From: Lineus longissimus
Lineage: Eukaryota; Nemertea; Pilidiophora; Heteronemertea; Lineidae
Length of the DNA: 64,000 bases
Reading direction: 5' to 3'
Assembly (NCBI RefSeq): GCF_910592395.1
Contig: NC_088311.1
Coordinates: forward strand, 14,818,501-14,882,500
Part shown: positions 37,371 to 58,510 of the stretch, in pieces
Layout of the letters: each line of letters opens with the position of its first letter
How positions within the stretch are numbered: the stretch's first letter is position 1
The notes under the pieces: generated by a model
Database searches by the model: none
What the model was told of the DNA's origin: nothing
The model's input: only the letters and a program-made list of their open reading frames with translations
Program-made: the position numbers and the translations under genes

Positions 37371-37582
37371 AGAAAGTGTATATTGTGGTGGTAGGAATAT
37401 AGGTATTTTGAAGCTATTTTGACCAAAAGCCCTTACAGGTCTTTTGCCCCAAATTAGCCTACAACCCCCAAAGAACCAATCCACCACAATATACACTTTC
37501 TATCATTCATGAGATTCCCAGTGAAGCGTTGCAATGAAATGGTCAGTGAAATGGTGAGGGAATACTAGAGTTCAATGGGTTA
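37371..37582 (+). repeat. Polinton left TIR
   Basis: 212 bp, identical in inverted orientation to 58299-58510. Its first 131 bp are themselves bounded by a 21-bp inverted pair: AGAAAGTGTATATTGTGGTG plus G at the outer end (37371-37391) and its reverse complement at about 37,481-37,501. The TIR can therefore fold on itself. In protein-primed replication the terminus is the PolB origin. Confidence 0.95.
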
Positions 37583-40017: not shown

Positions 40018-40053
40018 AGACGGACTTCGTCCTGAGAGCAAAGCTCGAGACCA
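40018..40053. repeat. Palindromic module (half unit)
   Basis: GGACTTCGTCCTGAGAGC then AAAGCTCGA: stems GGAC/GTCC and GAGC/GCTC. Translated in frame as TDFVLRAKLE inside the 39627-40226 gene. Confidence 0.8.
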
Positions 40054-40236
40054 GTCATAAACCAAAGAGTAATGTTGATACACCAAAAACAACTGAAACC
40101 TCAAAGAATACTCCTACTACTACTAAACTTGACACCAAAGTTGAGAAGGTGGATGATACTCATGAAACAATTAAATTCATGCTTTACTCAGTTGTTGGTA
40201 CATTGATTGTTTTTATGGTTAGATAAATAAGTAATT

Positions 40237-41829
40237 ATGGCTGAAGGAGGTGAAAATTATGAAATGAGTGATTACGATACACAATCATCATCATCAGGAA
40301 CTGATGAAGACTGGGATAATTGGAGAAAGTTTATCTTTTATCCAAAAAGGCCAGACACAACATACAACACAGGAGGTGAAGATATCCAAATGGGTGAGTT
40401 AGATAATTATCGCTTTCGTAATGTGGATGATCCTAATACAGTTGAAACCAATAGAACTTTTCAAGATGACGGCACAACATACAACACAGGAGGTGGAAAT
40501 CTTACTACTGAAACTTCATTCATTACACCAGAAAGAGTAAGAGGTATTGTCCCTGAATTGATGGAAAAGGAGTTAAGTTACGATACAATAGAGGATAAAC
40601 TTGATACAGCATTGGGAGGATCAAACTGGAATTATGACAAGAAAAAATTGAGTAATCTTGCACCACACATTAGTTACAAAGGTAACAAACTTTATTACGA
40701 TCCGAAAACAAAGTATGAAGTTGATTTGATTAAAGATAAACTAGAAAACAAAAATTTATTTGACTATCCTAATAAGGATGAAACCATTATTACCAAGTTA
40801 ATTCCTTTAACTAAGGATAATGGAAGCTTCTATGCTGAAGGCACATTAAAGACTAAGTTTGGTACTAGATTTGTTGACATGATTAGAGGTATGATTGCAC
40901 CTGACCCACCAGTAAGGGAACCTAAATCTGCATCCACTCAAACAGACATATTAATTAATGAGGTAAACAGTTCAAACAAACCAATAGATAAACTGATAGA
41001 TTCTAATGATGATGAACTTAAAACACTGGGTTTTACTGAATATGCCTTGAGAGAACTTAGAGGGTTAAAACAGGCTGGTGATGATCTAGCTGCAGTAAAG
41101 AGGGATAAGGACATGCAAATAGAGGAATTAGAAAATAAACTTCGTAATTTAACAAGAGACTATGTAAAGTCTGTAGAAGAAGATACTAAAGATAAAGTGG
41201 AGTTGAAAAAGCAAAAAGATGAACTAAATGACAAATTGCATGAGGAACAGTCAAAGGTATGGAGGTTAGACAATGACAGGGAGTCACAAACTAGAAGAAT
41301 TAAACGTTTAATTGTTGATGTTCTAAAGAAACCAGATTCAACTATTCCTCTGAAGGACAGAATAAAGTTACTTTTTAAGACATATGGTGTAACCATTAGC
41401 GCCATAATAACAGCTGTTGTAATGACATTTACAACTCTAGGTCTTAGTATCAGTAGTGCTTTAAGTGGTGCCACTAAATCTGTAAAACCAACTCCAGGAC
41501 CAGGACCATCTCCAGGACCAGACCCAACTCCAGGACCTACACCAGAACCAGGACCAAAACCATCAATACCAGATAAAGTAAAAGAAGGTCTCAAGAAGTT
41601 TGCTGAATGGCTAAAAGAACTAGCCAAGAAATCAGCTGCGGCTTTACCGGGAATCATCGGTTCTATCGTATCATTTCTCCTGAAAACAATTGGTGCAGTT
41701 GTTGGCTTTCTAGCTGAACATCTGATCATAGCAGTTATTGCTATTGTTAGTTCCATAATTTATGGTTTAATTGGGGGTGTTAAAGCCTTAAAATCACGTA
41801 AAACAGTAAAATCACGTAAAAGGTCTTAG
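40237..41829 (+). CDS. Polinton accessory protein: coiled coil, Pro-rich hinge, C-terminal membrane segments
   Basis: A 530-residue intact frame. Residues about 1-190 include two copies of a TTYNTGG phrase and a folded region (YDPKTKYEVDLIKDKL). Residues 260-370 are a coiled coil (DMQIEELENKLRNLTRDYVK). Then come a hydrophobic segment (VTISAIITAVVMTFTTLGLS), a GPGPSPGPDPTPGPTPEPGP hinge, an amphipathic helix (LKKFAEWLKELAKKSAAAL) and two further hydrophobic stretches ending in a basic tail. This layout is conserved in invertebrate Polintons as far as I recognise. A membrane-active or internal virion role is inference. It sits in the left plus-strand gene block. Confidence 0.75.
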   Translation: MAEGGENYEMSDYDTQSSSSGTDEDWDNWRKFIFYPKRPDTTYNTGGEDIQMGELDNYRFRNVDDPNTVETNRTFQDDGTTYNTGGGNLTTETSFITPERVRGIVPELMEKELSYDTIEDKLDTALGGSNWNYDKKKLSNLAPHISYKGNKLYYDPKTKYEVDLIKDKLENKNLFDYPNKDETIITKLIPLTKDNGSFYAEGTLKTKFGTRFVDMIRGMIAPDPPVREPKSASTQTDILINEVNSSNKPIDKLIDSNDDELKTLGFTEYALRELRGLKQAGDDLAAVKRDKDMQIEELENKLRNLTRDYVKSVEEDTKDKVELKKQKDELNDKLHEEQSKVWRLDNDRESQTRRIKRLIVDVLKKPDSTIPLKDRIKLLFKTYGVTISAIITAVVMTFTTLGLSISSALSGATKSVKPTPGPGPSPGPDPTPGPTPEPGPKPSIPDKVKEGLKKFAEWLKELAKKSAAALPGIIGSIVSFLLKTIGAVVGFLAEHLIIAVIAIVSSIIYGLIGGVKALKSRKTVKSRKRS

Positions 41830-41876
41830 GTGACCTTCTATCAAAACAATGTTTAAAAAATAATTATTATGTAAAT

Positions 41877-43016
41877 ATGAATAAATACATCTCATTAAAA
41901 GACTATTATTCTAGTGAGTGGAACAATGAGAATCTTAAAGGATACATTCGTCCTAGGGTTATGGATCGAGCAGAGCTCTCAGGACGAAGTCCGACTAGGA
42001 CAAAGTCCCGAGAGCAAAGCTCGACTGAGACAGGCAAAGTAGTCCTGCCAAGAATGAAAGAATATGACGTCAGTACCAACACTAATGCTCAATTCTGCCG
42101 TAATTGTAAAAGGTGGACACTTTTTGAGTATCAAAAAAACTTGAATTCAGCAAGGTACGCAGCTAAAACTGTGAAGTATCAATTCTGCACCAATTGCAAT
42201 TCGACTACTTACGACGATGATTTTAAAACTCTTGAGATCAATATTGACAACAAGACACGTTACTTTGACAGTATTCTAAGGAAACTTGGATGGAGTCGGC
42301 TGTCCGAATCGGCAGTTAAGTATTTAAAGGACTTTGTGGAAGGGTATTTACAGTGCTACTTTTCAAGTCACAGAAAATGTCTTAGTAAGCAGAGATATGA
42401 AAGTACTCTTCAGTCAGCCCTAAAAATGGGTATTAACACTCTCCCCTCTAAGTTATGTAACCAAGGGTTACATGGTGAAGCCATGCTTTTTAAATTTCAC
42501 TGTGGGGAATATGATTGGTTTCTTGCCATTGAATTTATTAACAGGGCAATTGGTAAACCGCAATTAACCGATGAGAATATCACTGACCTTAGACTAGTGT
42601 ACTATGCTTTCCTTAGATTTCTGCATTACTGTGGTGTGAAGGTCACCATTAACTACAAGGTATTTTTACACCAAGCCTTTAAAACGCTGAAAATTGATTA
42701 TGTAATATTTACACCTTTTTTAACCAACAAGGAGCGAGTAAATGATTTGGAGAGATTATGGTATGATTTCACTCAAAGTATTTTCTTCCAGAATTACAAG
42801 GTTGAGAAGGAATATGACCAGGATATTGACAAGCAGTTTGACGTTTTATTGGGTGCTAGTGCAGGTCGAGACATTAACTGCATCAGTAGTATTAAGTTTA
42901 CACCAGCCGGACTTCGTCCTGAGAGCATAGCTCGAGCCGGACTTCGTCCTGAGAGCATAGCTCGAGCCGGACTTCGTCCTGAGAGCATAGCTCGAGCTAG
43001 TGTTAAGATGCAATAA
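41877..43016 (+). CDS. Polinton protein with zinc-ribbon-like Cys pairs; palindrome insertions
   Basis: 379 residues. It starts MNKYISLKDYYSSEW; a palindromic module occupies residues about 30-50 (SGRSPTRTKSREQSS). Then FCRNCKRWTLFEY and FCTNCNSTTY form two CxxC pairs about 35 residues apart, suggesting a zinc ribbon. The remainder is helical (LHGEAMLFKFHCGEYDWFLA, NITDLRLVYYAFLRFL). The C-terminus ends in three perfect 30-bp tandem module units translated GLRPESIARA. I recognise the family as a recurrent Polinton gene without a known function. The modules lie at the poorly conserved N- and C-terminal parts, and the frame remains open through them. Confidence 0.75.
   Translation: MNKYISLKDYYSSEWNNENLKGYIRPRVMDRAELSGRSPTRTKSREQSSTETGKVVLPRMKEYDVSTNTNAQFCRNCKRWTLFEYQKNLNSARYAAKTVKYQFCTNCNSTTYDDDFKTLEINIDNKTRYFDSILRKLGWSRLSESAVKYLKDFVEGYLQCYFSSHRKCLSKQRYESTLQSALKMGINTLPSKLCNQGLHGEAMLFKFHCGEYDWFLAIEFINRAIGKPQLTDENITDLRLVYYAFLRFLHYCGVKVTINYKVFLHQAFKTLKIDYVIFTPFLTNKERVNDLERLWYDFTQSIFFQNYKVEKEYDQDIDKQFDVLLGASAGRDINCISSIKFTPAGLRPESIARAGLRPESIARAGLRPESIARASVKMQ
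41965..42024. repeat. Palindromic module (full unit)
   Basis: Four hairpins in a row, GAGC-AGA-GCTC, GGAC-GAA-GTCC, GGAC-AAA-GTCC, GAGC-AAA-GCTC, forming one larger 60-bp inverted repeat with centre GACTA. Translated SGRSPTRTKSREQSS. Confidence 0.93.
42905..42994. repeat. Three tandem 30-bp half modules
   Basis: Three identical 30-bp units AGCCGGACTTCGTCCTGAGA... each with GGAC-TTC-GTCC and GAGC-ATA-GCTC. Translated three times as GLRPESIARA. The only perfect tandem array of the module in the element. Confidence 0.95.
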
Positions 43017-43067
43017 AGTTGTGAAAACAGCATTTTGCACTTAACAGTCATTTTTCCATAATTTTAA

Positions 43068-43910
43068 ATGAATAATCAGCAAATGAATAGTCAGACATCT
43101 GCAGTGATTGAACAACAGATGAAACAGATTGGTGTTATGAGTCCTGAGAGCTTAGCTCGAGTTGGGGCTTCTAACCAACAGAACACTGGTAGTTACCAAC
43201 AAAACAGAACTAACTTTCAACAGAACTGCTCTACAAATCAACAAGTTTCAAACAAGCAGTTGAATAGTTCAAATTTAGTTACTCCTAGTCAGGGAATAGT
43301 TAATCCCAGTCAGGGAATAGTCAATTCTAGTTACCAACTAGGATTAACTAGCAATCAACAAGGTTCAAGTAACAATCAACAAAATTTGAACTATTTGACT
43401 GATAGTGGCCTTAAAGCCAAACAAGACTTAGAGATTCTAGTTGCAACTGGTAAAAGCAAGGATTTCCTTAATAAACAAATAACTTTTAATGACTTAGATA
43501 ATATGACTGAAAAAGAAATCTTAAAACATCATAGAATGTATGAAACAAAGATGGCTGCCAGACTTAATGATTCTTTGGGTAAGACAGTAATTAAAGCTTA
43601 CACTAAATTATCAAGGTGGTTATTACCAATAGATGATGAAGATAATCTTTATCATGATCTTAGAAATGATTATTTGATAACTAACGAGTTGGATAAATGG
43701 CTTGGATGGCTGAGTTTGAGAATGGGTCCATTAACTGCACTTGCTTCAACAACACTTATTACTTTAGGTCATTGTCATGAGGAATCATCTATGAATACAT
43801 CGAGTATGACTGCATCAAATATGAATACACCAAATATGACTGTCTCTGAATGTGACAAACCAATAGATGAAAGTCTAGATATCACAGGTAGTGATGACAA
43901 AGAAGACTAA
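43068..43910 (+). CDS. Polinton protein with N/Q-rich N-terminus
   Basis: 280 residues from an ATG preceded by TTAA. Residues 1-115 are Asn/Gln/Ser-rich with a partial palindromic module near residue 25 (SPESLARVG) and a duplicated SQGIVN phrase. Residues about 120-240 form a conserved helical domain (LNDSLGKTVIKAYTKLSRWL, ITNELDKWLGWLSLRMGPL) with a weak hydrophobic end. The tail repeats MNTSSMTASNMNTPNMT. It is recognised as a recurring Polinton protein of unknown function, possibly structural. Next gene starts 49 bp downstream on the same strand. Confidence 0.7.
   Translation: MNNQQMNSQTSAVIEQQMKQIGVMSPESLARVGASNQQNTGSYQQNRTNFQQNCSTNQQVSNKQLNSSNLVTPSQGIVNPSQGIVNSSYQLGLTSNQQGSSNNQQNLNYLTDSGLKAKQDLEILVATGKSKDFLNKQITFNDLDNMTEKEILKHHRMYETKMAARLNDSLGKTVIKAYTKLSRWLLPIDDEDNLYHDLRNDYLITNELDKWLGWLSLRMGPLTALASTTLITLGHCHEESSMNTSSMTASNMNTPNMTVSECDKPIDESLDITGSDDKED
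43141..43160. repeat. Palindromic module (fragment)
   Basis: GTCCTGAGAGCTTAGCTCGA with GAGC-TTA-GCTC; the GGAC arm is lost. Translated SPESLAR. Confidence 0.75.
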
Positions 43911-43958
43911 ATTAACCTGGTTATGAGAACATAGTTCGAATTAATTTGAGCAAGATAA

Positions 43959-44525
43959 ATGGAACTTGAAACTGTAACTGATACTACTCGAGCTATGCTC
44001 TCAGGACAAAGTCCGACTAGGACTACGTCAAGAGAACAAAGTTCGACTAAAGTTTCAGTGTCTAAGAAACCTCGATCAGAGAAACAATTAGCATGGTCTA
44101 GAGAACTGGGTAGAAGATCTAAGGAATTTAAGAGGAAAAAAAAGGATAAGACGACATTTAAAGTACAGGACTCCTCACCAAACAACAGAGTTGTGGAAAA
44201 GGAGGAAGAAGAATTAGAGGAAGAAGAACCACAATCTCAAAATACTGATGTATCACTGCGTGAATCTAGTAGTAATACTTATGTCTATGTACTAGGTTTA
44301 GGTGCCGTTATTTTAGCAGCATTCATTATGTTTAAGAAACTTCCTAAAAAAGTAAGTAAAGAGCAGCGATCAGGCTTGAATCGAGCTATGCTCTCAGGAC
44401 AAAGTCCTAATCGAACTTTGTTCTCTGGACAAAGTCCGAATGAAGCAGTCATGAAGGGATCAATTAACCCTCTTGTTAAACCTGTAGTTAAAGAGAAGAA
44501 ATGTACTATTCCTTTAATGGAATGA
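43959..44525 (+). CDS. Small single-pass membrane protein (Polinton accessory)
   Basis: 188 residues, ATG preceded by ATAA. A palindromic module fills residues about 11-30 (SGQSPTRTTSREQSS). A basic segment KPRSEKQLAWSRELGRRSK follows, then acidic stretches, one transmembrane helix (YVYVLGLGAVILAAFIMF) and a second module pair (SGQSPNRTLFSGQSP) in the C-terminal tail. The basic motif plus one TM helix recurs in Polintons. A virion membrane or core-linking role is inference. The 3' end overlaps the convergent minus-strand gene by 20 bp. Confidence 0.72.
   Translation: MELETVTDTTRAMLSGQSPTRTTSREQSSTKVSVSKKPRSEKQLAWSRELGRRSKEFKRKKKDKTTFKVQDSSPNNRVVEKEEEELEEEEPQSQNTDVSLRESSSNTYVYVLGLGAVILAAFIMFKKLPKKVSKEQRSGLNRAMLSGQSPNRTLFSGQSPNEAVMKGSINPLVKPVVKEKKCTIPLME
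43988..44046. repeat. Palindromic module (full unit)
   Basis: GAGC-TAT-GCTC, GGAC-AAA-GTCC, then a diverged GGACTACGTCA and GAAC-AAA-GTTC. Translated SGQSPTRTTSREQSS. Confidence 0.88.
44381..44440. repeat. Palindromic module (full unit, direct halves)
   Basis: GAGC-TAT-GCTC, GGAC-AAA-GTCC, GAAC-TTT-GTTC, GGAC-AAA-GTCC: here two halves are in direct instead of inverted order. Translated SGQSPNRTLFSGQSP. Confidence 0.9.
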
Positions 44526-45519
44526 TCTCATCAGGTGGTCGAGCAGAGCTCTCAGGACGAAGTCCGTCTAGGACAAAGGCCAGAGAGCAAAGCTCGATTC
44601 TTAACTCTAAAGAAACCTCTGTTCCTCTGAAATTAACTAGCTTACCATTCTCATCAGTGATTTCGAATTTTATGTGATTAGTACACTTATTTATCGTTTT
44701 CTTACAATTCGGTTCGTATCGCTGCATTTTTATTTGGTCACCATCTTCTACAGGTATGATGCAGAAAATGTTAGATGGTTTATTGTTGTAGAGGGTCTTA
44801 GCTTTGTCAACCAAATTAGCTTGCAGGAATAGATATTTCCTGTAAAAGTTGAGTGGTCTTGTGGAGTAGTATTTTCCTTTCTTGGTGAATTTAGTTTGCT
44901 TAAAGCCAAACCACTCATTCACCACTGTGAGCTGTTTTTCTTTCACCTCTCTTATGGTTTTGCTTATTTGAAAACCTTCTGTGTTTCTCTCAATCTTGAT
45001 TTTTTCATTTTTATCTAACTTGTCTACTTTCAGAGGGTACTCTTTATCCTCTGTAAGTTCAAGGGTTATGTAATTATTGTTATCACAGTAAATTTTCACA
45101 TGGCTTATTCCAATTTCTTTTATGTATTTTTGCCATACCTCACAAAACTCACTTAAACTAAAATGTCGAGAGTATGGAAATGTGTATTGAGTAATGGTGT
45201 CTTTAGTTGTGGTAGAATCATTTTCCAAATGCCGTTCGCAAATTTTCATGACTTCCTTTTCAAGTGTATCTGTTTCAAGTCCAGGAGCAAATAATGTCCT
45301 ACACCATAATTGTTTATCTAAGGGCTCATGTGTTGTAATTCTGGTTATTTCGACTAGAAATGAGAAAATCCTGACTCCCTCCGGTAGAAAATCACCTGTC
45401 CACCATGAATTGTAAAAGGTTATCGATTTCAAAGTAATGGATTTTATGTCTAATTGGTCTGTTAAGTAGTACTCAAATTTGGCTTCATTACATTCTTGTT
45501 CATTGATTATGAAGTCCAT
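44506..45519 (-). CDS. Penton/minor-capsid-like protein 1 (Polinton)
   Basis: 337 residues on minus, convergent with the gene before it and divergent from PolB. The C-terminal 60 residues show IKFEITDENGKLVNFRGTEV, the ending seen again in the 54930-54163 protein (IRLTDEKGDIIDLNGHNV), so the two are paralogues or share a domain. Such endings are typical of the minor capsid/penton-like proteins that accompany Polinton major capsid proteins. The N-terminal region (FDFIIN...YNSWWTG) appears beta-rich. A palindromic module is translated at the extreme C-terminus (SLAFVLDGLRPESSA), after the conserved end, lengthening the protein. Structural role inferred. Confidence 0.6.
   Translation of the reverse strand: MDFIINEQECNEAKFEYYLTDQLDIKSITLKSITFYNSWWTGDFLPEGVRIFSFLVEITRITTHEPLDKQLWCRTLFAPGLETDTLEKEVMKICERHLENDSTTTKDTITQYTFPYSRHFSLSEFCEVWQKYIKEIGISHVKIYCDNNNYITLELTEDKEYPLKVDKLDKNEKIKIERNTEGFQISKTIREVKEKQLTVVNEWFGFKQTKFTKKGKYYSTRPLNFYRKYLFLQANLVDKAKTLYNNKPSNIFCIIPVEDGDQIKMQRYEPNCKKTINKCTNHIKFEITDENGKLVNFRGTEVSLELRIELCSLAFVLDGLRPESSARPPDEIIPLKE
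44539..44597. repeat. Palindromic module (full unit)
   Basis: GAGC-AGA-GCTC, GGAC-GAA-GTCC, GGAC-AAA-GGCC (one stem mismatch), GAGC-AAA-GCTC. Read from the minus strand as the C-terminus of the 45519-44506 protein (FVLDGLRPESSA). Confidence 0.9.
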
Positions 45520-45575
45520 TTCTATTTAATTCAAGAGATTTATTGAATTTAATAAATTTTAATCTAATAAATAGA

Positions 45576-48500
45576 ATGACTGATAAGAATCAGAAAATAC
45601 TTTGCACTACATGTGACAAGTACATATCCTACAATAATATGGCTATTCACAGGAGAACCAAAGGTCACTTAAGTAAATTAAATCCGGATTATGTCCCTAT
45701 TGCTCAACCCCGAGCCCCATCACTGATCCCTAAAACTATGGATAAGAAACTTGCATTTGAGGAAAATGAGCTAGATGGCATAAAGAAAGTGAGTGGAATA
45801 GAAATAGTAAAACAATTTGGCAAGCCTGTAGTCACCATTAGTTTGAAGATTGACAGAGAAGCTAAACAAGTGTATGAATACAGAGATAAATTAGAGGAGG
45901 TATTATTTCAACTCAATGATTACCATCACAAAATTAGCATATCAGTATTTGCTCAGTTTGATCGACCTTTGGTCGAAGAGCAGAGCATTGATCGTCAGGG
46001 TGAAAGTGTAACCCGGACAAAGTCCCGAGAACAGAGTTCGACACACCCCATACAGTCTCCAATGGAAAGCATAATTTCAAGGAACCAGGCAATTTATGCC
46101 ATAACCAACCAGTTAAACTACATTAAGACACAGATTGAGGAAAGGTACTTTCAAGGTTCTGGACTTACTTTAAATAAAATAGAGTCTTGTAACATGACCA
46201 TCTGTTCTTACAAGAGGTGTAAAGGTGGTCATTACACTAAATTACCATTTAAAACAAAAGCAGTAATAAATGTGGAATCAAATGACAATAAATGTTTTCT
46301 CTGGTCTTTATTGGCCGCTAAATATCTAAAAGAAAATCCAGAGACGGACTTTGTCCTGAGGGCAGAGCTCGAGAGTACATTCAATATCACTACCGATATG
46401 CTAGAAATGACTTCGTCACGAGAACAGAGTTCGAAAACTACTGATATCAAAATCAAATCATTTCCTGTATGTATTCAAAAGGATATCCCTAAGATAGAGA
46501 GTGATAATAATCTCAAAATTAATGTGTTCAAGTTAGAGAACGAATGGGCTAAAAGCACCTGTGAGGCAAAACTAGAACCTCTCTACCTGTCCAAGAATTA
46601 TGATGATGATGATGATTTCATCGATCTGCTCTATTTCAAGGACCATTTCATGTACATAAGAGACATCAATCTTTTCTTCAGGACACTAGCTCATAGAGTG
46701 TATCTTTGCAGGAGATGCATGAATTACTTTTACAGGAAGTCAACACTAGATAAACATAAAAAGAAATGTGGAGAACACGATTACTGTAAGATTACTTTGC
46801 CTCCACCTAACAGTAAATGGTCACAAATTAAATTTGAAAAACACTCATTCAAAAATAGAGTTCCGTTTGTTATCTATGCTGATTTCGAAGCGATAAGCAC
46901 AACAGTCAATGATAACTCGAGCTCTGCTCTCACAACTCAGACAGATACCACTGTTACCACTAAAAAACTTTTTAAACAAAATGCATCAGCTGTTGGTGTT
47001 TATGTTCACTCAGACTACACACACCTTTACAGTAGCCAGTATGTGTCTCACAGGGGTGCTGATGTTGTAGATGTGTTCTGTAATTGGTTAATCAGGATGG
47101 AAGAACAATTATCTAATTTATTGAACTGTAACTTTCCTCTAACAATGACAGATGAAGACTGGCATAAATATCAATTAGAAACACATTGTTACTATTGTAA
47201 TCAACCTTTGGGATATGACAAGGTCAAGGATCATGATCACTACTGTGGTAGATATCGAGGTGCTGCTCACAACTCGTGTAATTTGAATGAAAAGAAAGCT
47301 ATGTTTGTTCCAGTGTTTTTTCACAATCTCAGTAATTACGATTCTCACTTATTTATTAAAGAATTAATGAATAAGCTACCGAAGTACAAGAAACTGAAAA
47401 TACTTGCCAAAACATCAGAGGAATACATCTCATTTCAGTTCGGTTGTTTCAGGTTTTTGGACTCGTACAGATTCCTGCAGTCCAGTTTAGACAACATAAC
47501 CAAATCAATGTTGGATGATGATTTTAAAATTACCAGACAGCTGTTCCCAAATACCACTGACTTTAAGCTATTGAGGAAGAAGGGTTCAGTACCTTACTCT
47601 TTTTACACATCACATGAAAGCTACAATGTTACTTACCTAGAAAAGTCTATGTTTTTTGACGAATTGAAAAATGAAATGGCACCTGATTCTGCCTATGATG
47701 AGGCTAAGGTAATATGGGATCATTTCAAGATCAGGAATCACGGTGAGTTCATTGACCTCTACCTCAAAACTGATGTGATCCTTTTAGCTGATTTATTTGA
47801 GAAATTCAGGGATGTCAATTTGAACTACTTTCAGATAGATCCATGTCACTGTTACTCGGCACCAGGCCTAACCTGGCAAGCTGGTTTGAAGTACACAGGA
47901 ATAAACCTAGAACTACTGACTGATACCAACATCTTACTTACTTTTGAGAAAGCAATACGAGGTGGAATTTCGGGTGTTATGGGAACAAGACATGTCAAGG
48001 CAGATGAACACCACAAACTACTCTATGTAGACGCAAATAATCTCTACGGCTGGTCCATGATGGAACCTCAACCCTATGGTAGTTTTGAAATGATAGATAT
48101 TGATCCACTTAACATGAATGTTATCAGTAAAGAGCAGATTATGGCAATTCCAAGTGATAGTGAGGTAGGGTATTTCTTAGAGGTGGATTTGGAGTATCCA
48201 GGAAATATTAAATTTAAGTCAAGGAACTTTCCATTCTGTCCCGAATCTCTCTTTATTGAAGATGATGAATTAAGTCCTTACCAGAGAGAGTTACTGGGCG
48301 ATGATAAAAGATCAAATGTAGAGAAACTAATACTAACACAAAAGGATAAAACTAATTACATAGTGCATTACAGAATGCTACAATTTTACCTCAAGCACGG
48401 AATGGTACTTAAGAGGGTTCATTCAGTGATAAGCTTTAAACAATCAAAGTGGTTAGCACCATACATTGATTTTAACACTAAAAGACGTATGGATTCTAAG

Positions 48501-49328
48501 ACTGATTTTGAGAAAGACTATTTTAAGCTCATGAATAATGCGTTCTACGGAAAGACCTGTGAGAATGTAAGGAACAGGGTTGAAATTGAATTTGTATCGG
48601 ACGGGGAGAGAGCCAGGAATGTAATGGCCAATCCCAGGTTTTCATCGATATGCGTATTTGACGAACATAATGCTGCTATTAGCATGAGGAAAACATCAAT
48701 GAAATTCAACAAACCAATCTACATAGGAGCTTCAGTACTTGAATTGTCTAAATTATTAATGTATGAATTCTATTATGAAGTTCTTCAACCGTACTTTGGT
48801 GAGAAAAATATTGAACTACTGTATCTAGATACAGATTCCTTTGTACTTAACATTAATACTGATGACTTAACTAAAGACTTAAAGGAGTTTAAACACTATT
48901 TTGACTTCAGTAATTATCCAAAAGATCATACACTCTATGACACCAGTAAGAAGAAGGTACCAGGCTACTTTAAGGATGAGCTAGGAGGAGTAGAGATGAC
49001 TGAATTCATTGCCCTGAGAAGTAAGATGTACGCTTACAGAACAAAAGATTACGATTCTAAGAAATTGAAGGGTATTGCCAAGAATGTAGTAAGGAGAAAT
49101 ATCTCATTTGATGACTATGTTGATTGTCTTGAAAAGAGTAGGTCATTTTACCACAAGATGAGACACTTAAGATCAGATAAACACCAAATCTATTTGGAAG
49201 AAGTTGACAAAAAAAGCCTCAGTCCTTTTGATGACAAGAGGTTCATACTTGAAGATGGAATAAGCACCTTACCATTTGGAATGTATTATGAAGGCTACAT
49301 AGATAACAGCGATTCAAACTTCGCTTGA
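45576..49328 (+). CDS. polB: Protein-primed family B DNA polymerase (PolB)
   Basis: 1,250 residues from ATG 45,576. The N-terminus has a C2H2-like finger (residue 10, CTTCDKYISYNNMAIHRRTK), a second near 385 (CRRCMNYFYRKSTLDKHK) and an HNH-like Cys/His cluster at about 538-570 (CYYCNQPLGYDKVKDHDH). 3'-5' exonuclease: ExoI VIYADFEA (about 433), ExoII HNLSNYDSHLF (583), ExoIII YLKTDVILLADLF (729). Polymerase: motif A DANNLYGWSM (819), B KLMNNAFYGKTCENV (985), C YLDTDSF (1084). All catalytic acidic residues are present. It would replicate the element by protein priming from the TIRs. Four palindromic modules are translated between residues about 130 and 455, all in linkers and none in a conserved motif. 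The frame is intact. Confidence 0.95.
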   Translation: MTDKNQKILCTTCDKYISYNNMAIHRRTKGHLSKLNPDYVPIAQPRAPSLIPKTMDKKLAFEENELDGIKKVSGIEIVKQFGKPVVTISLKIDREAKQVYEYRDKLEEVLFQLNDYHHKISISVFAQFDRPLVEEQSIDRQGESVTRTKSREQSSTHPIQSPMESIISRNQAIYAITNQLNYIKTQIEERYFQGSGLTLNKIESCNMTICSYKRCKGGHYTKLPFKTKAVINVESNDNKCFLWSLLAAKYLKENPETDFVLRAELESTFNITTDMLEMTSSREQSSKTTDIKIKSFPVCIQKDIPKIESDNNLKINVFKLENEWAKSTCEAKLEPLYLSKNYDDDDDFIDLLYFKDHFMYIRDINLFFRTLAHRVYLCRRCMNYFYRKSTLDKHKKKCGEHDYCKITLPPPNSKWSQIKFEKHSFKNRVPFVIYADFEAISTTVNDNSSSALTTQTDTTVTTKKLFKQNASAVGVYVHSDYTHLYSSQYVSHRGADVVDVFCNWLIRMEEQLSNLLNCNFPLTMTDEDWHKYQLETHCYYCNQPLGYDKVKDHDHYCGRYRGAAHNSCNLNEKKAMFVPVFFHNLSNYDSHLFIKELMNKLPKYKKLKILAKTSEEYISFQFGCFRFLDSYRFLQSSLDNITKSMLDDDFKITRQLFPNTTDFKLLRKKGSVPYSFYTSHESYNVTYLEKSMFFDELKNEMAPDSAYDEAKVIWDHFKIRNHGEFIDLYLKTDVILLADLFEKFRDVNLNYFQIDPCHCYSAPGLTWQAGLKYTGINLELLTDTNILLTFEKAIRGGISGVMGTRHVKADEHHKLLYVDANNLYGWSMMEPQPYGSFEMIDIDPLNMNVISKEQIMAIPSDSEVGYFLEVDLEYPGNIKFKSRNFPFCPESLFIEDDELSPYQRELLGDDKRSNVEKLILTQKDKTNYIVHYRMLQFYLKHGMVLKRVHSVISFKQSKWLAPYIDFNTKRRMDSKTDFEKDYFKLMNNAFYGKTCENVRNRVEIEFVSDGERARNVMANPRFSSICVFDEHNAAISMRKTSMKFNKPIYIGASVLELSKLLMYEFYYEVLQPYFGEKNIELLYLDTDSFVLNINTDDLTKDLKEFKHYFDFSNYPKDHTLYDTSKKKVPGYFKDELGGVEMTEFIALRSKMYAYRTKDYDSKKLKGIAKNVVRRNISFDDYVDCLEKSRSFYHKMRHLRSDKHQIYLEEVDKKSLSPFDDKRFILEDGISTLPFGMYYEGYIDNSDSNFA
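45962..46042. repeat. Palindromic module (diverged) in PolB
   Basis: A TCGACC-TTT-GGTCGA hairpin, then GAGC-AGA-GC, and at the right end CGGACAAAGTCCCG and GAAC-AGA-GTTC. Translated in frame at PolB residues about 130-156 (SVTRTKSREQSS). Confidence 0.8.
46346..46434. repeat. Two palindromic half modules in PolB
   Basis: 46346-46372: GGAC-TTT-GTCC, GGGC-AGA-GCTC (DFVLRAELE). 46409-46434: GAC-TTC-GTC, GAAC-AGA-GTTC (TSSREQSS). They lie 36 bp apart, read in frame but in different frames of the module. Confidence 0.85.
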
Positions 49329-49330
49329 GT

Positions 49331-49420
49331 CCGACTACGTCCTGAGAGCATAGCTCGAGTTGCAAAAATCATTATTCGGACTTTCTCCTAGTCGAGCTTT
49401 GACCTGAGAGCAGAGCTCGA
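49331..49420. repeat. Palindromic modules after PolB stop
   Basis: 49331-49358 (GAC-TAC-GTC, GAGC-ATA-GCTC) and 49376-49420 (GGACTTTCTCC, GAGCTTTGACC, GAGC-AGA-GCTC), non-coding and with more stem mismatches than the in-gene copies. Confidence 0.8.
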
Positions 49421-49537
49421 TTAAACTAATGAATAGGGTGGTGCTGATGGTAGTGTTACTTGGTGAAATTCATCCCTAACATCAAAGTAATGATAATAGT
49501 GATAGTGATACACCACATTAGGATTAGGACTATTTAG

Positions 49538-49624
49538 TCGAACTTTGTTCTCTGGACTTTGTCCTAGTCCGACTTCGTCTTGAGAGCATAGCTCGAGTCG
49601 AACTTTGTTCTCTGGACGTAGTCC
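49538..49624. repeat. Palindromic module array (about 1.5 units)
   Basis: GAAC-TTT-GTTC, GGAC-TTT-GTCC, CCGACTTCGTC, GAGC-ATA-GCTC, GAAC-TTT-GTTC, GGAC-GTA-GTCC in succession, intergenic. Confidence 0.9.
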
Positions 49625-49638
49625 GGGTCCTGTTTGAT

Positions 49639-50298: not shown

Positions 50299-50302
50299 TT
50301 AA

Positions 50303-50572
50303 TTAGTGGGAATAACTAGAATCAGTTGTTCTGTCATTTCTAGTGTTTAGTGTTGATCCTACAGACACTACAGGTTTTTGTTGTACATTAAATTTTAAAG
50401 GTTTTTCTGACCCAACAGGTTTTTCTGTCCCAGCAGGCACAGCAGGTTTTAAAGGTTTTTCGGGACCAGGCTCCAACTTTGACTCTACTTCTGCCTCTAA
50501 TTCTCTATGAAATCGTTCTAATCTTTCTTTCCAATTACGTGGTCGTTTTGTGTAACCCCAAGTTCTATTTAT
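50303..50572 (-). pseudogene. Short basic/proline-rich Polinton ORF without ATG
   Basis: An open frame of 89 codons on minus, reading NRTWGYTKRPRNWKERLERF, a Glu-rich helix, then Pro/Lys repeats (GPEKPLKPAVPAG and similar), and ending at a TAA just before the next gene's start. The frame opens directly after a stop with ATA AAT AGA ACT where a start would be expected, so the ATG may be mutated to ATA. The amino-acid composition and position between two Polinton genes support it being a real, possibly start-less gene. Function unknown. Confidence 0.5.
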
Positions 50573-50591
50573 TTAATTAAGTAAAATAAAA

Positions 50592-51791
50592 TCAATTCAC
50601 TGCAAAGAGTAAATTTCTTTCAAGTCTATTATTCAACTTAATCATCTCGTTTATGATTTCTGTCTGACTACATATGTTAATGTTCTGGTTCATTCTCATG
50701 TTATTATTTAAATTCGATAATCTATCAAGCAGAATCATATTTTCATCACGAAGATAATCCCCGAAATGCTGTGATATCACTATTTTCCAATCTGGCATTA
50801 CATCCTGGTCTCGAAAGACAAACCAGTTTTCACTTCTCATCTTTACCATGAAATCCATTGACCTATCCAATTGATCCTTAAATAGTGTGTAGTCTACTTT
50901 AGCACTCTTCTGTCTGTTTTCTGTCTTTTCCATTGGTCTAATGTTAAACCAAGCAAAGCACAGTTCAGGTTTATCTTTGAATTCCTTGATTGGTAAGACA
51001 TGATCCAACTCTTCTTCTATTCGAACTCTGTTCTCGGGACTTTGTCCTATTGTAGATAGACTCCTCTGGTACTCTAACCACTGTGAGAAGAAACTGTCTG
51101 TACATCCTAGATTGAATGATGAATTACCGGTCGAGCTTTGCTCTCTGGACCTTGTCCTAGTCGGACTTCGTCCTGAGAGCAGAGCTCGATTACACTCTCC
51201 CTTAGAAATGCGGTTTAGACCAACTCTAATTTTGTGTCTGTCTCTATTACCATTTTGGTCAAGGTAATCCTTTTTGTAATATGAATTAAAACATGATCTG
51301 CAGTTACCTCTATTTCCGTCTTTACCAAATTCACCATCACTTAGTAATTTAACTTCTCCACATTTACCACATTTCTTGGTTTTACTTGAACCACATTCTT
51401 TACAGTTATCAAGTAGTTTATTACGCCTGTTCTTTTCAAAATTAATTTCAGGTTTCTTTTCACAGCACTTAACACAATAAATTGTAGGTTGATTTTCCAT
51501 GTTTTGATTCATCATATTATTCTGATTTTCCATGTTTTGATTTATCATATTTTGATTTTCCATGTTTTGATTTTCCATGTTTTGATTTAAGATAAACTGA
51601 TTTATCATATTTTGATTTAACATAATCTGATTTATCATATTTTGATTTAACATATTATTTTGATGCAAATAATACAAAAACTTCTGAATATTCTGATTCA
51701 TCATATTATCATAATTCATCATATTATTCTGATTCATCATACCATTTTGATTCATCATACCATTTTGATTATCAAATATTGCTCCATCCAT
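50592..51791 (-). CDS. HNH-endonuclease-like protein with Asn/Met/Gln repeat N-terminus
   Basis: 399 residues. Residues 1-100 are tandem NQNMMNQ/NQNMEN repeats. About 103-165 carry zinc-binding Cys pairs (CVKCCEKKP, CKECG, CGKCGEVK, CRSCFNSYYKK). A palindromic module is translated at about 200-222 (SGRSPTRTRSREQSS) and a half module near 245 (IGQSPENRV). About 255-300 read ELDHVLPIKEF...WFNIRPMEKTENRQKSAK, fitting an HNH fold (DH..P, N..P, N..K). The C-terminus is helical with an Asn-rich stretch. Nuclease function is inferred from the HNH-like signature. A role in homing, packaging or resolution is unknown. Confidence 0.65.
   Translation of the reverse strand: MDGAIFDNQNGMMNQNGMMNQNNMMNYDNMMNQNIQKFLYYLHQNNMLNQNMINQIMLNQNMINQFILNQNMENQNMENQNMINQNMENQNNMMNQNMENQPTIYCVKCCEKKPEINFEKNRRNKLLDNCKECGSSKTKKCGKCGEVKLLSDGEFGKDGNRGNCRSCFNSYYKKDYLDQNGNRDRHKIRVGLNRISKGECNRALLSGRSPTRTRSREQSSTGNSSFNLGCTDSFFSQWLEYQRSLSTIGQSPENRVRIEEELDHVLPIKEFKDKPELCFAWFNIRPMEKTENRQKSAKVDYTLFKDQLDRSMDFMVKMRSENWFVFRDQDVMPDWKIVISQHFGDYLRDENMILLDRLSNLNNNMRMNQNINICSQTEIINEMIKLNNRLERNLLFAVN
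51020..51189. repeat. Palindromic modules in the HNH-like gene
   Basis: 51020-51048 half unit (GAAC-TCT-GTTC, GGGAC-TTT-GTCCT) and 51131-51189 full unit (GAGC-TTT-GCTC, GGAC-CTT-GTCC, GGAC-TTC-GTCC, GAGC-AGA-GCTC). Both translated in frame on minus. Confidence 0.9.
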
Positions 51792-51879
51792 TTCTTTCTT
51801 TATTTAGTAGGACATTTTTTTTTTTAATTTCGTTTTTCGAACTTGTTCTTGTGACTTAAGTCACTTTAGAGACTTTATT

Positions 51880-53031
51880 TCATTTCAATGATTTGATATC
51901 AGAAACTGGTAACCATTCATTGAACTTATCACTGTAACCCTTCCACTTCACTAATCCGTATTTCTTGCCTTTACTGGTCTTGTACCTTAGGATTTTCTCG
52001 ATCTTGTACTCTAGCTGGTCAGGATTAGGAACATAGCTCAATTCCTCTTCATAGAAATATCCTTGAATTTCTTCTTTGTGGTAATCCTCAAGCTGGTAGA
52101 CGATAGGGTGAGTAAAGATGATCTGTTTGATTTGGAACACCTCCTCAGTGTAGTTGGGCATGTAACCTTTACCGAAAATGGACTTGTACTTTGAAATTCT
52201 TACACTGTCACCTACTTTGTACTTTGTATCACCAAATGTCTCTTTGAGGTGAAGACCGTAAAGATTGTACCACACTGTTCCTTCGTTTTCCATCTTTCTG
52301 GCGTCTACAGGTTTCATACCTATTGATGAGTGAAATGTGTTATTGTAGCCGCTGACCAGGTCATCCAGAACGTCAATCCACTTGTCAGTCTCCTTAGCGG
52401 TGAAATAACGCCACATTTTTTCTTTAAGGGTTCTATTGAATCTCTCTACTACTGCTGCCTTCTTATCAGATTTTGTGGAGAACCATTCTATGTCATTTTC
52501 TGTTAAGAGTTCCTTGAAGTGTTTGTTGTAAAATTCTTTACCGTAATCAAACTGGATTTTCGTTGGTTTTGCTTCCTCAAATATCACTTTAAATGCATCT
52601 CTGATTTCTTCTCCCCTCTTACTCTTAACTGCTAGAACCCAAGAAAAACGACTAAATAGATCTATGACTGTTAAAATGAATATGTTGCCTTTATTTTGTT
52701 TCTCAAATTTTTGCATGTCAACCAGATCTGCTTGCCATTGTTGATCGATGTACGATACCATTGTCTTCCTGAAGGTGAATTTCTTAATGGCCGGTTTGTG
52801 TAGTTGGTGAGTTGGTAGTGTTTCTAGAAATTCTTCCACTTCTTTTTGTTTAATAAGTTTTCCTGAGCGGGACTTTGTCCCTAACAACGAAGTTGTGCTC
52901 TGCTCTCGTGACGAAGTCATATCTTCCTTGACCTGTTTCCAGATTTTACTCAAAGAACTGTAAGCCACGGGACTCTCGGGGTTGTAGTACAAATCCCTTA
53001 GATACTGCTGTGTGTCATCCTTTACATTCAT
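51880..53031 (-). CDS. int: Polinton DDE integrase with C-terminal chromodomain
   Basis: 383 residues. The catalytic rve core has QADLVDMQKFE (D102), IQFDYGKEFYN (D162) and KAAVVERFNRTLKEKMW (E196). It resembles retroviral/gypsy integrases. The C-terminal module (KYKVGDSVRISKYKSIFGKG) is followed by a chromodomain at about 340-383 (KYGLVKWKGYSDKFNEWLP) that would target chromatin. A palindromic module is translated at about 38-57 (MTSSREQSTTSLLGTKSRSG), upstream of the core. It generates the 6-bp TSD. Its start codon lies four bases from that of the divergent ATPase gene, both sharing CATTTAAATG. Confidence 0.95.
   Translation of the reverse strand: MNVKDDTQQYLRDLYYNPESPVAYSSLSKIWKQVKEDMTSSREQSTTSLLGTKSRSGKLIKQKEVEEFLETLPTHQLHKPAIKKFTFRKTMVSYIDQQWQADLVDMQKFEKQNKGNIFILTVIDLFSRFSWVLAVKSKRGEEIRDAFKVIFEEAKPTKIQFDYGKEFYNKHFKELLTENDIEWFSTKSDKKAAVVERFNRTLKEKMWRYFTAKETDKWIDVLDDLVSGYNNTFHSSIGMKPVDARKMENEGTVWYNLYGLHLKETFGDTKYKVGDSVRISKYKSIFGKGYMPNYTEEVFQIKQIIFTHPIVYQLEDYHKEEIQGYFYEEELSYVPNPDQLEYKIEKILRYKTSKGKKYGLVKWKGYSDKFNEWLPVSDIKSLK
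52868..52918. repeat. Palindromic module (diverged) in integrase
   Basis: GGGAC-TTT-GTCCC, then a diverged CAACGAAGTTG hairpin, GTGCTCTGCTC and GACGAAGTC. Translated in integrase at residues about 38-57. Confidence 0.75.
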
Positions 53032-53038
53032 TTAAATG
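53029..53038. promoter_or_regulatory. Bidirectional start palindrome CATTTAAATG
   Basis: A perfect 10-bp palindrome in which CAT is the reversed start codon of the integrase and ATG the start of the ATPase, with only TTAA between. No room exists for separate 5' UTRs, so each mRNA must begin inside, or very close to, the other's coding region. Confidence 0.8.
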
Positions 53039-53656
53039 AGTGAAGTATGTATTTACGAGCCACACAATATGTTAATTTCTGGTGTTACCAATTGTGGTAA
53101 GACATATTTTGCCCTTGACCTCTTAGAAAAGGAGTATCGGCACAAGTTCCAGAACATAGACATTTTCTGTCCAACATATTTCAACAATAAGACATATGAA
53201 AGGAAATGGATTTACCAAGACAAGAACGTCTACATAGTTAATCCCGAAGCTGTGGCCAGTAATTTGGACCTTGTGCTTCAGTTTGCTACTCTGACCTTTG
53301 CTGGTTCTAACACATTATTCCTCATTGATGACTGTGCTAATTTGAGAGACACAAAAAAGAAGGTGTCCGAGTTATGTAATCTTGCCTTTTCCGGCAGGCA
53401 CTACAATCTCACTGTTTGGTTACTAGTTCAGAAGTACAATTCAGTTGTTAAGGACTACAGAGAGAACATAACAATTTTAGTATTATTTTTTAATAAGGAT
53501 GAATCAGCCATGAAAGATGCCTTAGAAGAAAACAGTGTTATTCCTAAGCAGAAAAGACAGTACTACATAGAAGAACTTAAGATGAAAAAAGGATCAAAAC
53601 TGATCATTAGACTACAACATCCATTTGGATTTACTCTTTCACATCAAAAATCTTAG
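53036..53656 (+). CDS. A32/FtsK-like genome-packaging ATPase
   Basis: 206 residues. Walker A ISGVTNCGKT at residues 15-23 and Walker B TLFLIDD at 93-99, followed by a GRHYNLTVWLLVQKYNSV sensor-type strand. This is the small DNA-packaging ATPase typical of Polintons and related to poxvirus A32. It would translocate element DNA into capsids. The frame is intact and no palindromic module lies inside; one begins at 53,669, immediately after the stop. The start is shared as a palindrome with integrase. Confidence 0.92.
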   Translation: MSEVCIYEPHNMLISGVTNCGKTYFALDLLEKEYRHKFQNIDIFCPTYFNNKTYERKWIYQDKNVYIVNPEAVASNLDLVLQFATLTFAGSNTLFLIDDCANLRDTKKKVSELCNLAFSGRHYNLTVWLLVQKYNSVVKDYRENITILVLFFNKDESAMKDALEENSVIPKQKRQYYIEELKMKKGSKLIIRLQHPFGFTLSHQKS

Positions 53657-53668
53657 TCCCGCTTCTCA

Positions 53669-53696
53669 TCGAGCTATGCTCTCAGGACTGTGTCCG
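53669..53696. repeat. Palindromic half module between ATPase and membrane-protein genes
   Basis: GAGC-TAT-GCTC, GGAC-TGT-GTCC, in the 25-bp space after the ATPase stop and overlapping the end of the minus-strand gene. Confidence 0.85.
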
Positions 53697-54140
53697 ATCA
53701 GTTGTCTTAGTCTTTCTAACCCTAGTAAAATAATAAATTATTAACCCTAAACCACTAAGTCCTAGGATAATCCATAGGTACTCGTATTTCTTCATTTCAT
53801 CACTAGGTTGGTAGTAATCACTTAATTGTGGTCGCTGAGGTAGTACAATAGTTCTTTCTGGATGTAAATGATTGTAAAACGTAAGTGCTGAATCATTATT
53901 GTTAAAATCAATAGAAGCGTCTCTTTCTCTCTTTAATTCAAGATTAACAAAGTCAATGGTACTTTTCCTATGCTCATCCCATTCTGTGGAGGCCTTCTGT
54001 AATTGCTCCTGAGCCAAATCATGTCTTTTCACTTCAGTCTCATAACCGTTTTTGTCTAGTTTTTTAAAAAGGTAACCGGATCCAGTGAATGCTAATCCAT
54101 TGATTATTGCAGATCCAAATAACATGCCAATGCCAGCCAT
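53682..54140 (-). CDS. Two-TM-type small membrane protein (Polinton)
   Basis: 152 residues with ATG preceded by TTAA. An N-terminal Gly-rich hydrophobic segment (MLFGSAIINGLAFTGSGYLF), a charged central helix (residues about 30-75), then a C-terminal transmembrane helix (YLWIILGLSGLGLIIYYFT) and a basic tail. It is recognised as a recurrent protein between ATPase and minor capsid genes in Polintons, perhaps a virion membrane component. The last residues (TDRTQS) are encoded by a palindromic module, which appears to supply the stop codon. Confidence 0.72.
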   Translation of the reverse strand: MAGIGMLFGSAIINGLAFTGSGYLFKKLDKNGYETEVKRHDLAQEQLQKASTEWDEHRKSTIDFVNLELKRERDASIDFNNNDSALTFYNHLHPERTIVLPQRPQLSDYYQPSDEMKKYEYLWIILGLSGLGLIIYYFTRVRKTKTTDRTQS

Positions 54141-54162
54141 TTAATTTCAACGAATTTTAATT

Positions 54163-54930
54163 TCAATGATGTGTCGCTGAGAGCATAGCTCGAGTTAATA
54201 CCAATTGGTACTGTACATTATGACCATTAAGATCGATGATGTCACCTTTTTCATCAGTTAAGCGAATATTCAGCTTATTGAATCTTGGTTTACAGGGAAT
54301 TGCTATTGGTTTCTCAAATGTGTATGCTATTAAATCCCCAAAATTAGCTTCCTTTATTGGTCTTGTGGTTAGCACATCAGATGCTTCACCATTACTTAAT
54401 ACACTATAAGATTCGATTATGTCACAGTGAAAAACAAAATGGTTAATTGGTCTAAAATTGATGGGTTTCTCGCTTACAACATCATCCTTACTTTTATTGT
54501 CTAAAGGGTAAGGCCATTCTGATTTCATGCCAAATAATTCATTACTTTTACCAAGAAAATAGATCTGATAATGCGCCTCATTTTTTCTCTTTAGGAAGTG
54601 TAAGATGGCCTTACCTGTTGGTTCTTCAAGGTCAAATCTGACAGCACCTCTACTCATACTATTTTCTTTCAACTTATCCGCAAATACTTTTGAAAAGCTC
54701 TGTAGGTCATAGAGACCATCTGGTAGCGTAATCTCTGCCACATCAAACCCCTTAACTTTGATTCGGTTATTCTCCCTGGCTGCACTTATGTTGTAGAATG
54801 TACAAGGTATTACTGCAAAAGTTAAAGTGATGCTACATGCATCCTGAATTTCAGTCTTGAGATTGACTGTTAAATCACTTGAACTCTGATCTGGATAGTC
54901 ACTTGAATCTATGTTCATTACAGTAACCAT
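54163..54930 (-). CDS. Penton/minor-capsid-like protein 2 (Polinton)
   Basis: 255 residues, ATG preceded by GTAA. Beta-rich, with NIDSSDYPDQSSSDLTVNL near the start, ITLPDGLYDLQSFSKVFADK in the middle and IRLTDEKGDIIDLNGHNVQY near the end. The ending matches the 45519-44506 protein. This is the arrangement of Polinton minor capsid (penton-like) proteins, next to the major capsid gene and transcribed with it. A half palindromic module supplies the C-terminal residues RAMLSATHH. The frame is intact. Function inferred from family and neighbourhood. Confidence 0.75.
   Translation of the reverse strand: MVTVMNIDSSDYPDQSSSDLTVNLKTEIQDACSITLTFAVIPCTFYNISAARENNRIKVKGFDVAEITLPDGLYDLQSFSKVFADKLKENSMSRGAVRFDLEEPTGKAILHFLKRKNEAHYQIYFLGKSNELFGMKSEWPYPLDNKSKDDVVSEKPINFRPINHFVFHCDIIESYSVLSNGEASDVLTTRPIKEANFGDLIAYTFEKPIAIPCKPRFNKLNIRLTDEKGDIIDLNGHNVQYQLVLTRAMLSATHH
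54177..54193. repeat. Palindromic module fragment at end of minor capsid gene
   Basis: CTGAGAGCATAGCTCGA (GAGC-ATA-GCTC), encoding the last residues of the 54930-54163 protein. Confidence 0.8.
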
Positions 54931-58298: not shown

Positions 58299-58510
58299 TA
58301 ACCCATTGAACTCTAGTATTCCCTCACCATTTCACTGACCATTTCATTGCAACGCTTCACTGGGAATCTCATGAATGATAGAAAGTGTATATTGTGGTGG
58401 ATTGGTTCTTTGGGGGTTGTAGGCTAATTTGGGGCAAAAGACCTGTAAGGGCTTTTGGTCAAAATAGCTTCAAAATACCTATATTCCTACCACCACAATA
58501 TACACTTTCT
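58299..58510 (-). repeat. Polinton right TIR
   Basis: Perfect inverted copy of 37371-37582, ending ...ATATACACTTTCT, followed by the second TGACTG. It contains the same nested 21-bp inverted pair. Confidence 0.95.

Follow-up and report, generated by a model that had tools for sequence, protein, structure and literature searches.

A stretch of 64,000 nucleotides from the nemertean Lineus longissimus (contig NC_088311.1 of assembly GCF_910592395.1, positions 14,818,501 to 14,882,500; here called the window) contains a Polinton that is interspersed with copies of a 27-bp sequence. Comparison of Polinton copies makes it very probable that this sequence is a mobile, frame-neutral mini-element that lives almost only in the Polintons of this worm. 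The mobile unit, CGAGC-nnn-GCTC-TCn-GGAC-nnn-GTCCG, consists of two hairpins with 4-bp stems joined by a TCn spacer, and a 3-bp direct repeat, most often ANT, is present on both sides of it. Because the 27-bp unit comes with a repeated triplet of 3 bp, each insertion adds 30 bp, and the reading frame is therefore kept. An earlier reading of the window, made without database searches (the sequence-only reading), had described a palindromic mini-element dispersed in frame through the Polinton; 27 units, filled and empty sites and the preserved frame support this description. Its "full unit" of 60 bp and its "half unit" have to be redefined, since the half unit is the true element and each 60-bp palindrome consists of two oppositely oriented 27-bp units at one shared triplet.

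The unit and its host

The host element occupies positions 37371-58510 of the window and has features by which Polinton/Maverick elements are recognized, namely PolB, an rve integrase, a packaging ATPase, long terminal inverted repeats (TIRs) and a 6-bp target duplication. Its TIRs (37371..37582 on the plus strand and 58299..58510 on the minus strand) are 212 bp long and 100% complementary to each other, and TGACTG is found outside both ends. A Pfam scan of its proteins yielded PF03175 (4.9e-19), PF00665 (1.2e-11) and PF04665 (2.5e-15); the integrase carries the rve domain together with a chromodomain, and the ATPase is A32-like. The gene labels g1-g13 were coined in this analysis.

All 27 units of the window (at most five mismatches to the 27-bp pattern) are located at 40021-53696 within the Polinton, and none was detected at this threshold in the other 43 kb of the window or in either of two block-shuffled controls. 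A single-hairpin pattern (at most two mismatches) matched the window 30 times, including 29 times within the Polinton; shuffling gave 1.88 matches on average. Insertions had been claimed for at least eight genes including those for PolB, the integrase and an HNH-like protein, and 21 of the 27 units were indeed counted in eight genes: five in g3, four each in g5 and PolB, three in the HNH gene, two in g6 and one each in g1, g4 and the integrase gene. The other six are intergenic, in 921 of the 15,283 bp of the gene region, so that intergenic DNA is enriched in units and genes are not neutral ground. No unit of the window Polinton is present past 53696, the region of the candidate capsid open reading frames (ORFs; 55338-56594), apart from a hairpin fragment at the 3' end of g13 (54179..54193, plus strand) that was identified with the single-hairpin pattern.

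Folding of single strands gave z scores of -6.28, -3.30 and -7.12 for three pairs of units in +- orientation and of -4.15 for a pair in the same orientation; a tandem array of three units (-0.09) folded no better than shuffles. Among 69 distinct units, covariation is clear only for stem pair A3, with 13 double changes and one broken pair. Rfam returned no matches at the gathering score for 39900-54300 of the window, and a protein search with the unit peptide matched no other proteins at E values up to 10.

Filled and empty sites

Eight copies of the Polinton family were compared, the window and seven on contig C1 (A-G), together with two more distant stretches. Breaks in the copy-to-copy alignments coincide with units. 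In pairwise alignments that were blind to the unit, there are 284 distinct indels with a length of 8 bp or more, 79 of them exactly 30 bp long and 20 exactly 60 bp, the next most frequent size being 21 bp (n=13); distinct here means distinct strings, so that one event can count more than once. Three of the 79 indels of 30 bp lack the hairpin core by a loose pattern and represent an unrelated repeat, and a fourth lacks the core by eye. An exact, ungapped empty counterpart exists for 47 of 124 unit clusters, with a duplication of 3 bp in 43, of 2 bp in three and of 0 bp in one; the comparison of copies with and without insertions, which the sequence-only reading had proposed, thus defines a unit of 27 bp and a duplication of 3 bp. 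Module-free relatives are plentiful, as 61 of 137 clusters have a cluster-free counterpart in another copy, two of these inside a tandem array.

One site in g5 occurs in three states: a single ACT in copies C, D and E, ACT-unit-ACT in A, F and G, and ACT-unit-ACT-inverted unit-ACT in the window and B. In the window, the first of these units is at 43989..44015 (plus strand, triplets ACT/ACT) and the inverted one at 44019..44045 (minus strand). Additional units join at the same triplet in either orientation, giving rise to arrays of 60, 90 and up to 300 bp. Filled/empty differences between the window and the other copies run both ways, the window being empty at seven sites that are filled elsewhere (41914, 43360, 46430, 47130, 48077, 49021 and 52364). 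Of 22 PolB homologues found, eight were aligned and are devoid of the inserted peptides; unit presence is thus the derived state at those PolB sites.

Target triplet and possible donor bases

Judged by the commonest triplet at each of 31 sites, the base left of the unit (in unit orientation) is T at all 31 and the first triplet base is A at 21, with ACT as the most frequent triplet (11/31). Single exceptions to the left-hand T are known, one among 168 units in one count and another at locus L037. By our own grouping, 20 distinct sites have an empty counterpart; the target triplet itself ends in T at 17 of these, and 14 have one or more filled copies in which the triplets to the left and right of the unit are both identical to the target. 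Across 48 sequences, 31 site/flank combinations were compared; 22 match the target throughout, and in the other nine the differences fall on left position 3 or right positions 1-2, never on the unit-distal base. As far as aligned copies tell, the insertion triplet is normally xxT in unit orientation, most often ANT, and is repeated upon insertion.

Identical 27-mers occur at different sites beside different triplets. A common triplet was nonetheless seen in 23 of 63 pairs of identical 27-mers at different sites versus 877 of 5324 pairs of different 27-mers, an excess that 0 of 1000 permutations reach, with entries that are not independent. This suggests that bases of the donor flank travel along with the unit, which in turn would favor copying via short homology rather than a clean staggered cut.

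Reading frame and selection

In 28 of 30 copies, g3 remains an open frame of 359-459 amino acids with the same C-terminus although it holds 3-13 units; the exceptions are L042 with an early stop and L050, whose frame is lost near the end. Frame was further assessed for 419 units (at most four mismatches) in 46 sequences, a few of them counted twice through overlapping pieces. For units with both flanks assignable to a gene, the frames of the two flanks agree in 314 cases and disagree in three, two of which belong to the broken L050; 77 further units have one flank in a gene and 25 have none. The units occur in all six orientation/phase classes and accordingly encode unrelated peptides.

For one of these classes, a spacer of the common form TCA would introduce the stop codon TGA. 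With the frame of each unit taken from its flanks, 51 of 53 units in this class have TCG, TCT or TCC, versus 42 of 338 units with a non-A spacer elsewhere (296 of 338 end in A). The two stop-bearing exceptions represent a single site (53670, window and copy A) at which the TGA serves as the stop of g12 itself. When counted by site bins, non-A spacers amount to 5/6 in the stop-prone class versus 4/30 elsewhere. The sequence-only reading had reported that internal insertions keep the frame, which holds, and a reason can now be added to it: the 30-bp step, together with the near absence of stop-bearing readings inside genes.

The ratio pN/pS ranges from 0.10 to 0.19 for PolB (ten comparisons, seven copies), and by this measure PolB is under purifying selection. 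The corresponding ranges are 0.10-0.72 for the integrase, 0.12-0.62 for the ATPase (one value undefined), 0.14-0.69 for g3 and 0.38-0.90 for the HNH gene. The fast-evolving g2 (40237-41829) reaches 0.72-1.39 in seven comparisons; its product combines a Pro/Gly repeat with a C-terminal part that is hydrophobic, and its window copy has no unit.

Distribution in the genome

The genome that was searched comprises 391 Mb in 30 contigs, and the window and the Polinton copies reside on contigs of 13-29 Mb. The exact hairpin pattern produced 3199 matches, versus 7 for the reversed control. Nine stretches cover the 100 places that were listed (C1 up to position 12,995,119), and for each of these 100 a match to the window Polinton, 100 bp or longer, is no more than 95 bp away. 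For a rarer variant of the loop, 37 places exist in the genome (control 0), of which 20 were fetched. Matches of more than 80 bp to the window Polinton accompany 17 of these 20, many at only 70-77% identity, and such low identity indicates that many of them are probably other Polinton families. The similarity of two more (L065 and L080) is to Polinton-related stretches, and short matches had been the basis for assigning some of these. The last, L083 on contig C19, shows no Polinton match in 2.8 kb. Its unit, around position 1437, is near the end of matches to another repeat, the stretch exists in three copies on C19, and one of the 17 unfetched places is in the second of these copies.

The search of the host genome with the module, another of the checks proposed earlier, therefore assigns 119 of 120 examined places to Polinton-related DNA. 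That the element occurs nowhere else holds for the window, for which it had been claimed, and for these 119 places, and fails for the one unit on C19. Viral contigs contain neither a match to the unit pattern nor a related integrase, and 257 Gb of prokaryote genomes gave five isolated matches of an 18-base pattern, about the number expected by chance (approximately 7 by our own estimate).

Turnover among near-identical copies

With an 871-bp probe, 295 candidate loci were found at first look; 40 were scored, all of them 99-100% identical. The thirty that were fetched include the window (L033) and copy D (L054). Among pairs with at most four differences in 850 bp, 86 of 94 differ in the units that flank the probe. 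No more than 25 substitutions over roughly 2.1-2.75 kb separate the members of 66 of the 435 pairs. The indels in these 66 number 274, of which 168 have a length divisible by 30 bp; set against a sum of 1347 substitutions, this amounts to approximately one 30-bp change for every eight substitutions, in pairs that are not independent. At site 42908, one unit is present at two loci, two units at 16, three at 10, four at one and ten at one. In the last of these, L053 (C4:9467351-9468216 and flanks), the ten 30-bp units follow one another at the C-terminus of g3, where they read as decapeptide repeats and leave the frame unbroken.

Proposed mechanism and alternative explanations

On balance, the data as a whole are best explained by mobile 27-bp units that spread by template-switch copy-and-paste. 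Template switching at short homologies during Polinton replication, taken as a mechanism in its own right, comes slightly short of an even chance. Copying would take place while Polinton DNA is replicated: a nascent strand that ends in xxT would jump to an xxT beside a unit on another Polinton molecule, copy the unit and come back via the next triplet. Strand displacement by PolB would expose hairpins on single strands, and these would cause the polymerase to pause. The frame-neutral length, combined with readability in all frames, would explain why units survive inside genes. More tentatively, the self-spreading 27-nt hairpin can be pictured as a gene-less hyperparasite that uses the replication of its carrier and jumps by 1-3 nt of homology, the size of 27+3 and the readability having been selected so that carrier genes are occupied unbroken. 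If this is true, a mobile element would be adding decapeptides to, and removing them from, the proteins of its carrier at the rate given above for the compared region.

Several observations weigh against mobility by template switching. Mobility is deduced from the comparison of copies. The copies are related and may recombine, for which reason units and pairs, including those of the triplet-sharing test, are not independent, and the apparent turnover may be inflated. Taken together, the eight stem pairs show 25 double changes versus 44 broken pairs, and the seven pairs other than A3 show 12 versus 43; since the latter are mostly broken, old units have retained the hairpin only in part. Confinement to Polintons is not absolute, as one unit of the 120 places is embedded in DNA without detectable Polinton similarity. 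Flanks do differ from the target at the unit-distal base in copy A at 40013, where the outer flank is altered, and in copy C at 49018, next to a decayed unit. A fixed 3-bp duplication is also left by the staggered cut of a transposase or endonuclease, and among the products of the Polinton is an endonuclease VII-like HNH protein.

This last point leads to the main rival, an ultra-short miniature inverted-repeat transposable element (MITE), for which a transposase or the HNH endonuclease would act in trans and cut with a 3-nt stagger at ANT; the 27-bp unit would then be ligated into the cut, and gap filling would leave the repeated triplet. Such an origin is unlikely but deserves attention: the duplication has a fixed length (3 bp in 43 of 47 clusters), the unit ends CGAGC and CGGAC are alike in inverted orientation, and the HNH protein of the carrier (phrog_1035, 2e-10) is an obvious suspect. 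However, 27 bp is too short for the usual transposase sites, and no autonomous element with these ends was seen in the fetched stretches, to which the search was limited. Differences between flank and target are, moreover, mostly unit-proximal with the two exceptions already mentioned, whereas later mutation should hit every position. The same imperfect flanks, several of which match the target on one side and resemble a common donor triplet on the other, are what would be expected if a circle of about 30 nt with a 3-nt overlap were integrated by site-specific recombination, leaving the donor triplet on one flank and the target on the other. A duplex circle of 30 bp is physically implausible, though, and no tyrosine or serine recombinase was found among the 10 proteins scanned with Pfam, which renders this route improbable.

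Slippage alone, by which 30-bp repeats grow and shrink with no movement between sites, would account for the arrays of 1-10 tandem units at 42908 and sits well with the three 30-bp indels that are an unrelated repeat. It probably contributes to copy-number change within arrays, but as the sole explanation it is very improbable and is contradicted by the presence of units at approximately 20 distinct places for which other copies are empty, by the repeated triplets, by the use of both orientations and by the recurrence of the same 27-mer at more than one site. Selection for the peptide, either as a conserved protein motif or as a structural repeat, is scarcely credible. The frame is open in nearly all copies and peptides such as AGLRPESIAR recur; yet units are read in all six orientation/phase classes as unrelated peptides, they are denser between genes than within them, and the aligned PolB homologues are free of them. 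Neither of the two outcomes that the sequence-only reading had named as fatal to it, a lack of module-free relatives and a protein motif shared by homologues, is thus borne out.

Relation to known elements

How tiny palindromic elements multiply is an open question in yeast mitochondria, Rickettsia and sponges, where good filled/empty comparisons are scarce. In the present system, one genome has many young Polinton copies with many states per site, and target choice, unit boundaries, donor flanks and gain or loss are therefore directly measurable. The unit also illustrates how arithmetic can make an insertion into a gene frame-neutral, the proteins of the replicon changing in steps of 10 residues.

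By analogy, the closest known systems are the yeast mitochondrial GC clusters and the Rickettsia palindromic elements, and the unit belongs to neither. GC clusters are short palindromes flanked by AG or ACT that also form mergers, and their mechanism was left open (Wu and Hao, 2015; PMC4478555). The GC42 cluster measures 42 nt, its turnover exceeds substitution and all of its 89 positions are intergenic or intronic; the same paper also mentions a cluster of 48 nt within the var1 (rps3) gene (PMC4478555). Their behavior is the most similar to that of the unit, which has a 3-bp duplication with ACT as the commonest triplet. In contrast to these mitochondrial, mostly intergenic or intronic clusters (PMC4478555), the unit measures 27 bp + 3 and is found in Polintons on nuclear contigs, mostly within genes even though intergenic DNA is enriched. 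Rickettsia palindromic elements share with it the in-frame insertion into many unrelated genes, but they are bacterial, about 150 bp long and encode a conserved peptide (PMC10969869), whereas the unit resides in an animal Polinton, in eight genes here, and has six classes and no conserved peptide.

Hairpin elements of mitochondria in sponges (RHE; PMC2800124) and placozoans (PMC7813641), like double-hairpin elements, are small hairpins that multiply within one replicon, in sponges also within protein-coding genes (PMC7813641). They differ in being organellar, and the passages on them contain no 30-bp step (PMC2800124; PMC7813641). PARCELs are likewise palindromic coding repeats in many ORFs, some on mobile elements; they are protein-domain repeats with an amphipathic peptide, and the term "target site" is absent from the main text of the paper (PMC2996958). 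Prokaryotic REP sequences are palindromes of 20-40 bp with a high copy number (PMC3733652). By their name they are extragenic, and they are prokaryotic and have no sequence relation to the unit. MITEs, as outlined in the relevant passages of PMC10969869, have a fixed-length duplication in common with the unit, in which only the similarity of CGAGC and CGGAC recalls TIRs. In the literature searched, which consisted of titles and the starts of abstracts and left most subscription journals uncovered, there was no description of such elements in Polintons and no Polinton paper on nemertea.

Units along the window

In g1, the site of the unit at 40021..40047 (minus strand, triplets AGA/AGA) is empty in copy C, with AGA. 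The g3 site at 41967..41993 (plus, GAT/ACT) also has a unit in copy F, and C, D and E have GAT without a unit there; a second, inverted unit at 41997..42023 (minus) uses the same triplet and completes a 60-bp palindrome, the hairpin with a z score of -6.28. Three tandem units with the triplet AGC (42908..42994, minus) encode AGLRPESIAR three times, the array that varies from 1 to 10 units across 30 loci including the window. A degenerate or truncated unit in g4 (43133..43159, minus) is fuller in copies C and E. Besides the ACT site, g5 contains two units in the same orientation, at 44382..44408 and 44412..44438 (both plus, AAT/AAT), identified by pattern match and copy comparison. By the 3' end of g6, the units at 44540..44566 (plus) and 44570..44596 (minus) have the window-strand triplets GGT/TCT and TCT/ATT, respectively.

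The PolB gene (45543..49328, plus; DNA_pol_B_2, 4.9e-19) has its first unit at 46014..46040 (minus; window-strand triplets ACC/ACA, target ACA), absent from the eight aligned homologues. It is followed by a unit at 46345..46371 (minus, AGA/AGA) that is empty in copy E, by a decayed unit with five mismatches (46407..46433, minus) and by a shortened unit (46918..46932, plus), 15 bp over the empty site, which is full in copy F and empty in C, E and G. Directly 3' of the PolB stop, pattern matches comprise a unit at 49331..49357 (minus, AGT/AGT) and a degenerate intergenic one at 49393..49419 (minus); between PolB and g8, three chained units (+ - +, 49539..49625) are absent from copy B (L009).

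Within the HNH/endonuclease VII-like gene (50592..51791, minus), the unit at 51022..51048 (plus, ATT/ATT) is empty in copy E and that at 51132..51158 (plus, GGT/AGT) in A, C, D, E, F and G; an inverted unit follows at 51162..51188 (minus), and copy B has one unit here. The integrase gene (51880..53031, minus; Pfam scan and unit count per gene) contains one decayed unit with five mismatches in the linker (52894..52920, plus). In this linker, a paralogue of the integrase from the same worm (P0014) likewise shows a peptide that resembles a unit, GHSPESIA, in a different reading. The unit at the ATPase/g12 junction (53670..53696, plus) is empty in copy C, and its TGA at 53682-53684 (minus) is the g12 stop.

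Two further repeats were observed in the Polinton. Tandem repeats of 15 bp at 51459-51790 encode the Asn/Met/Gln-rich start of the HNH protein. At 38160-38963, in the left non-coding end, a second and unrelated family of short palindromes (AATCGAATnnnTCATTCGATT type) is arranged in tandem and inverted copies.

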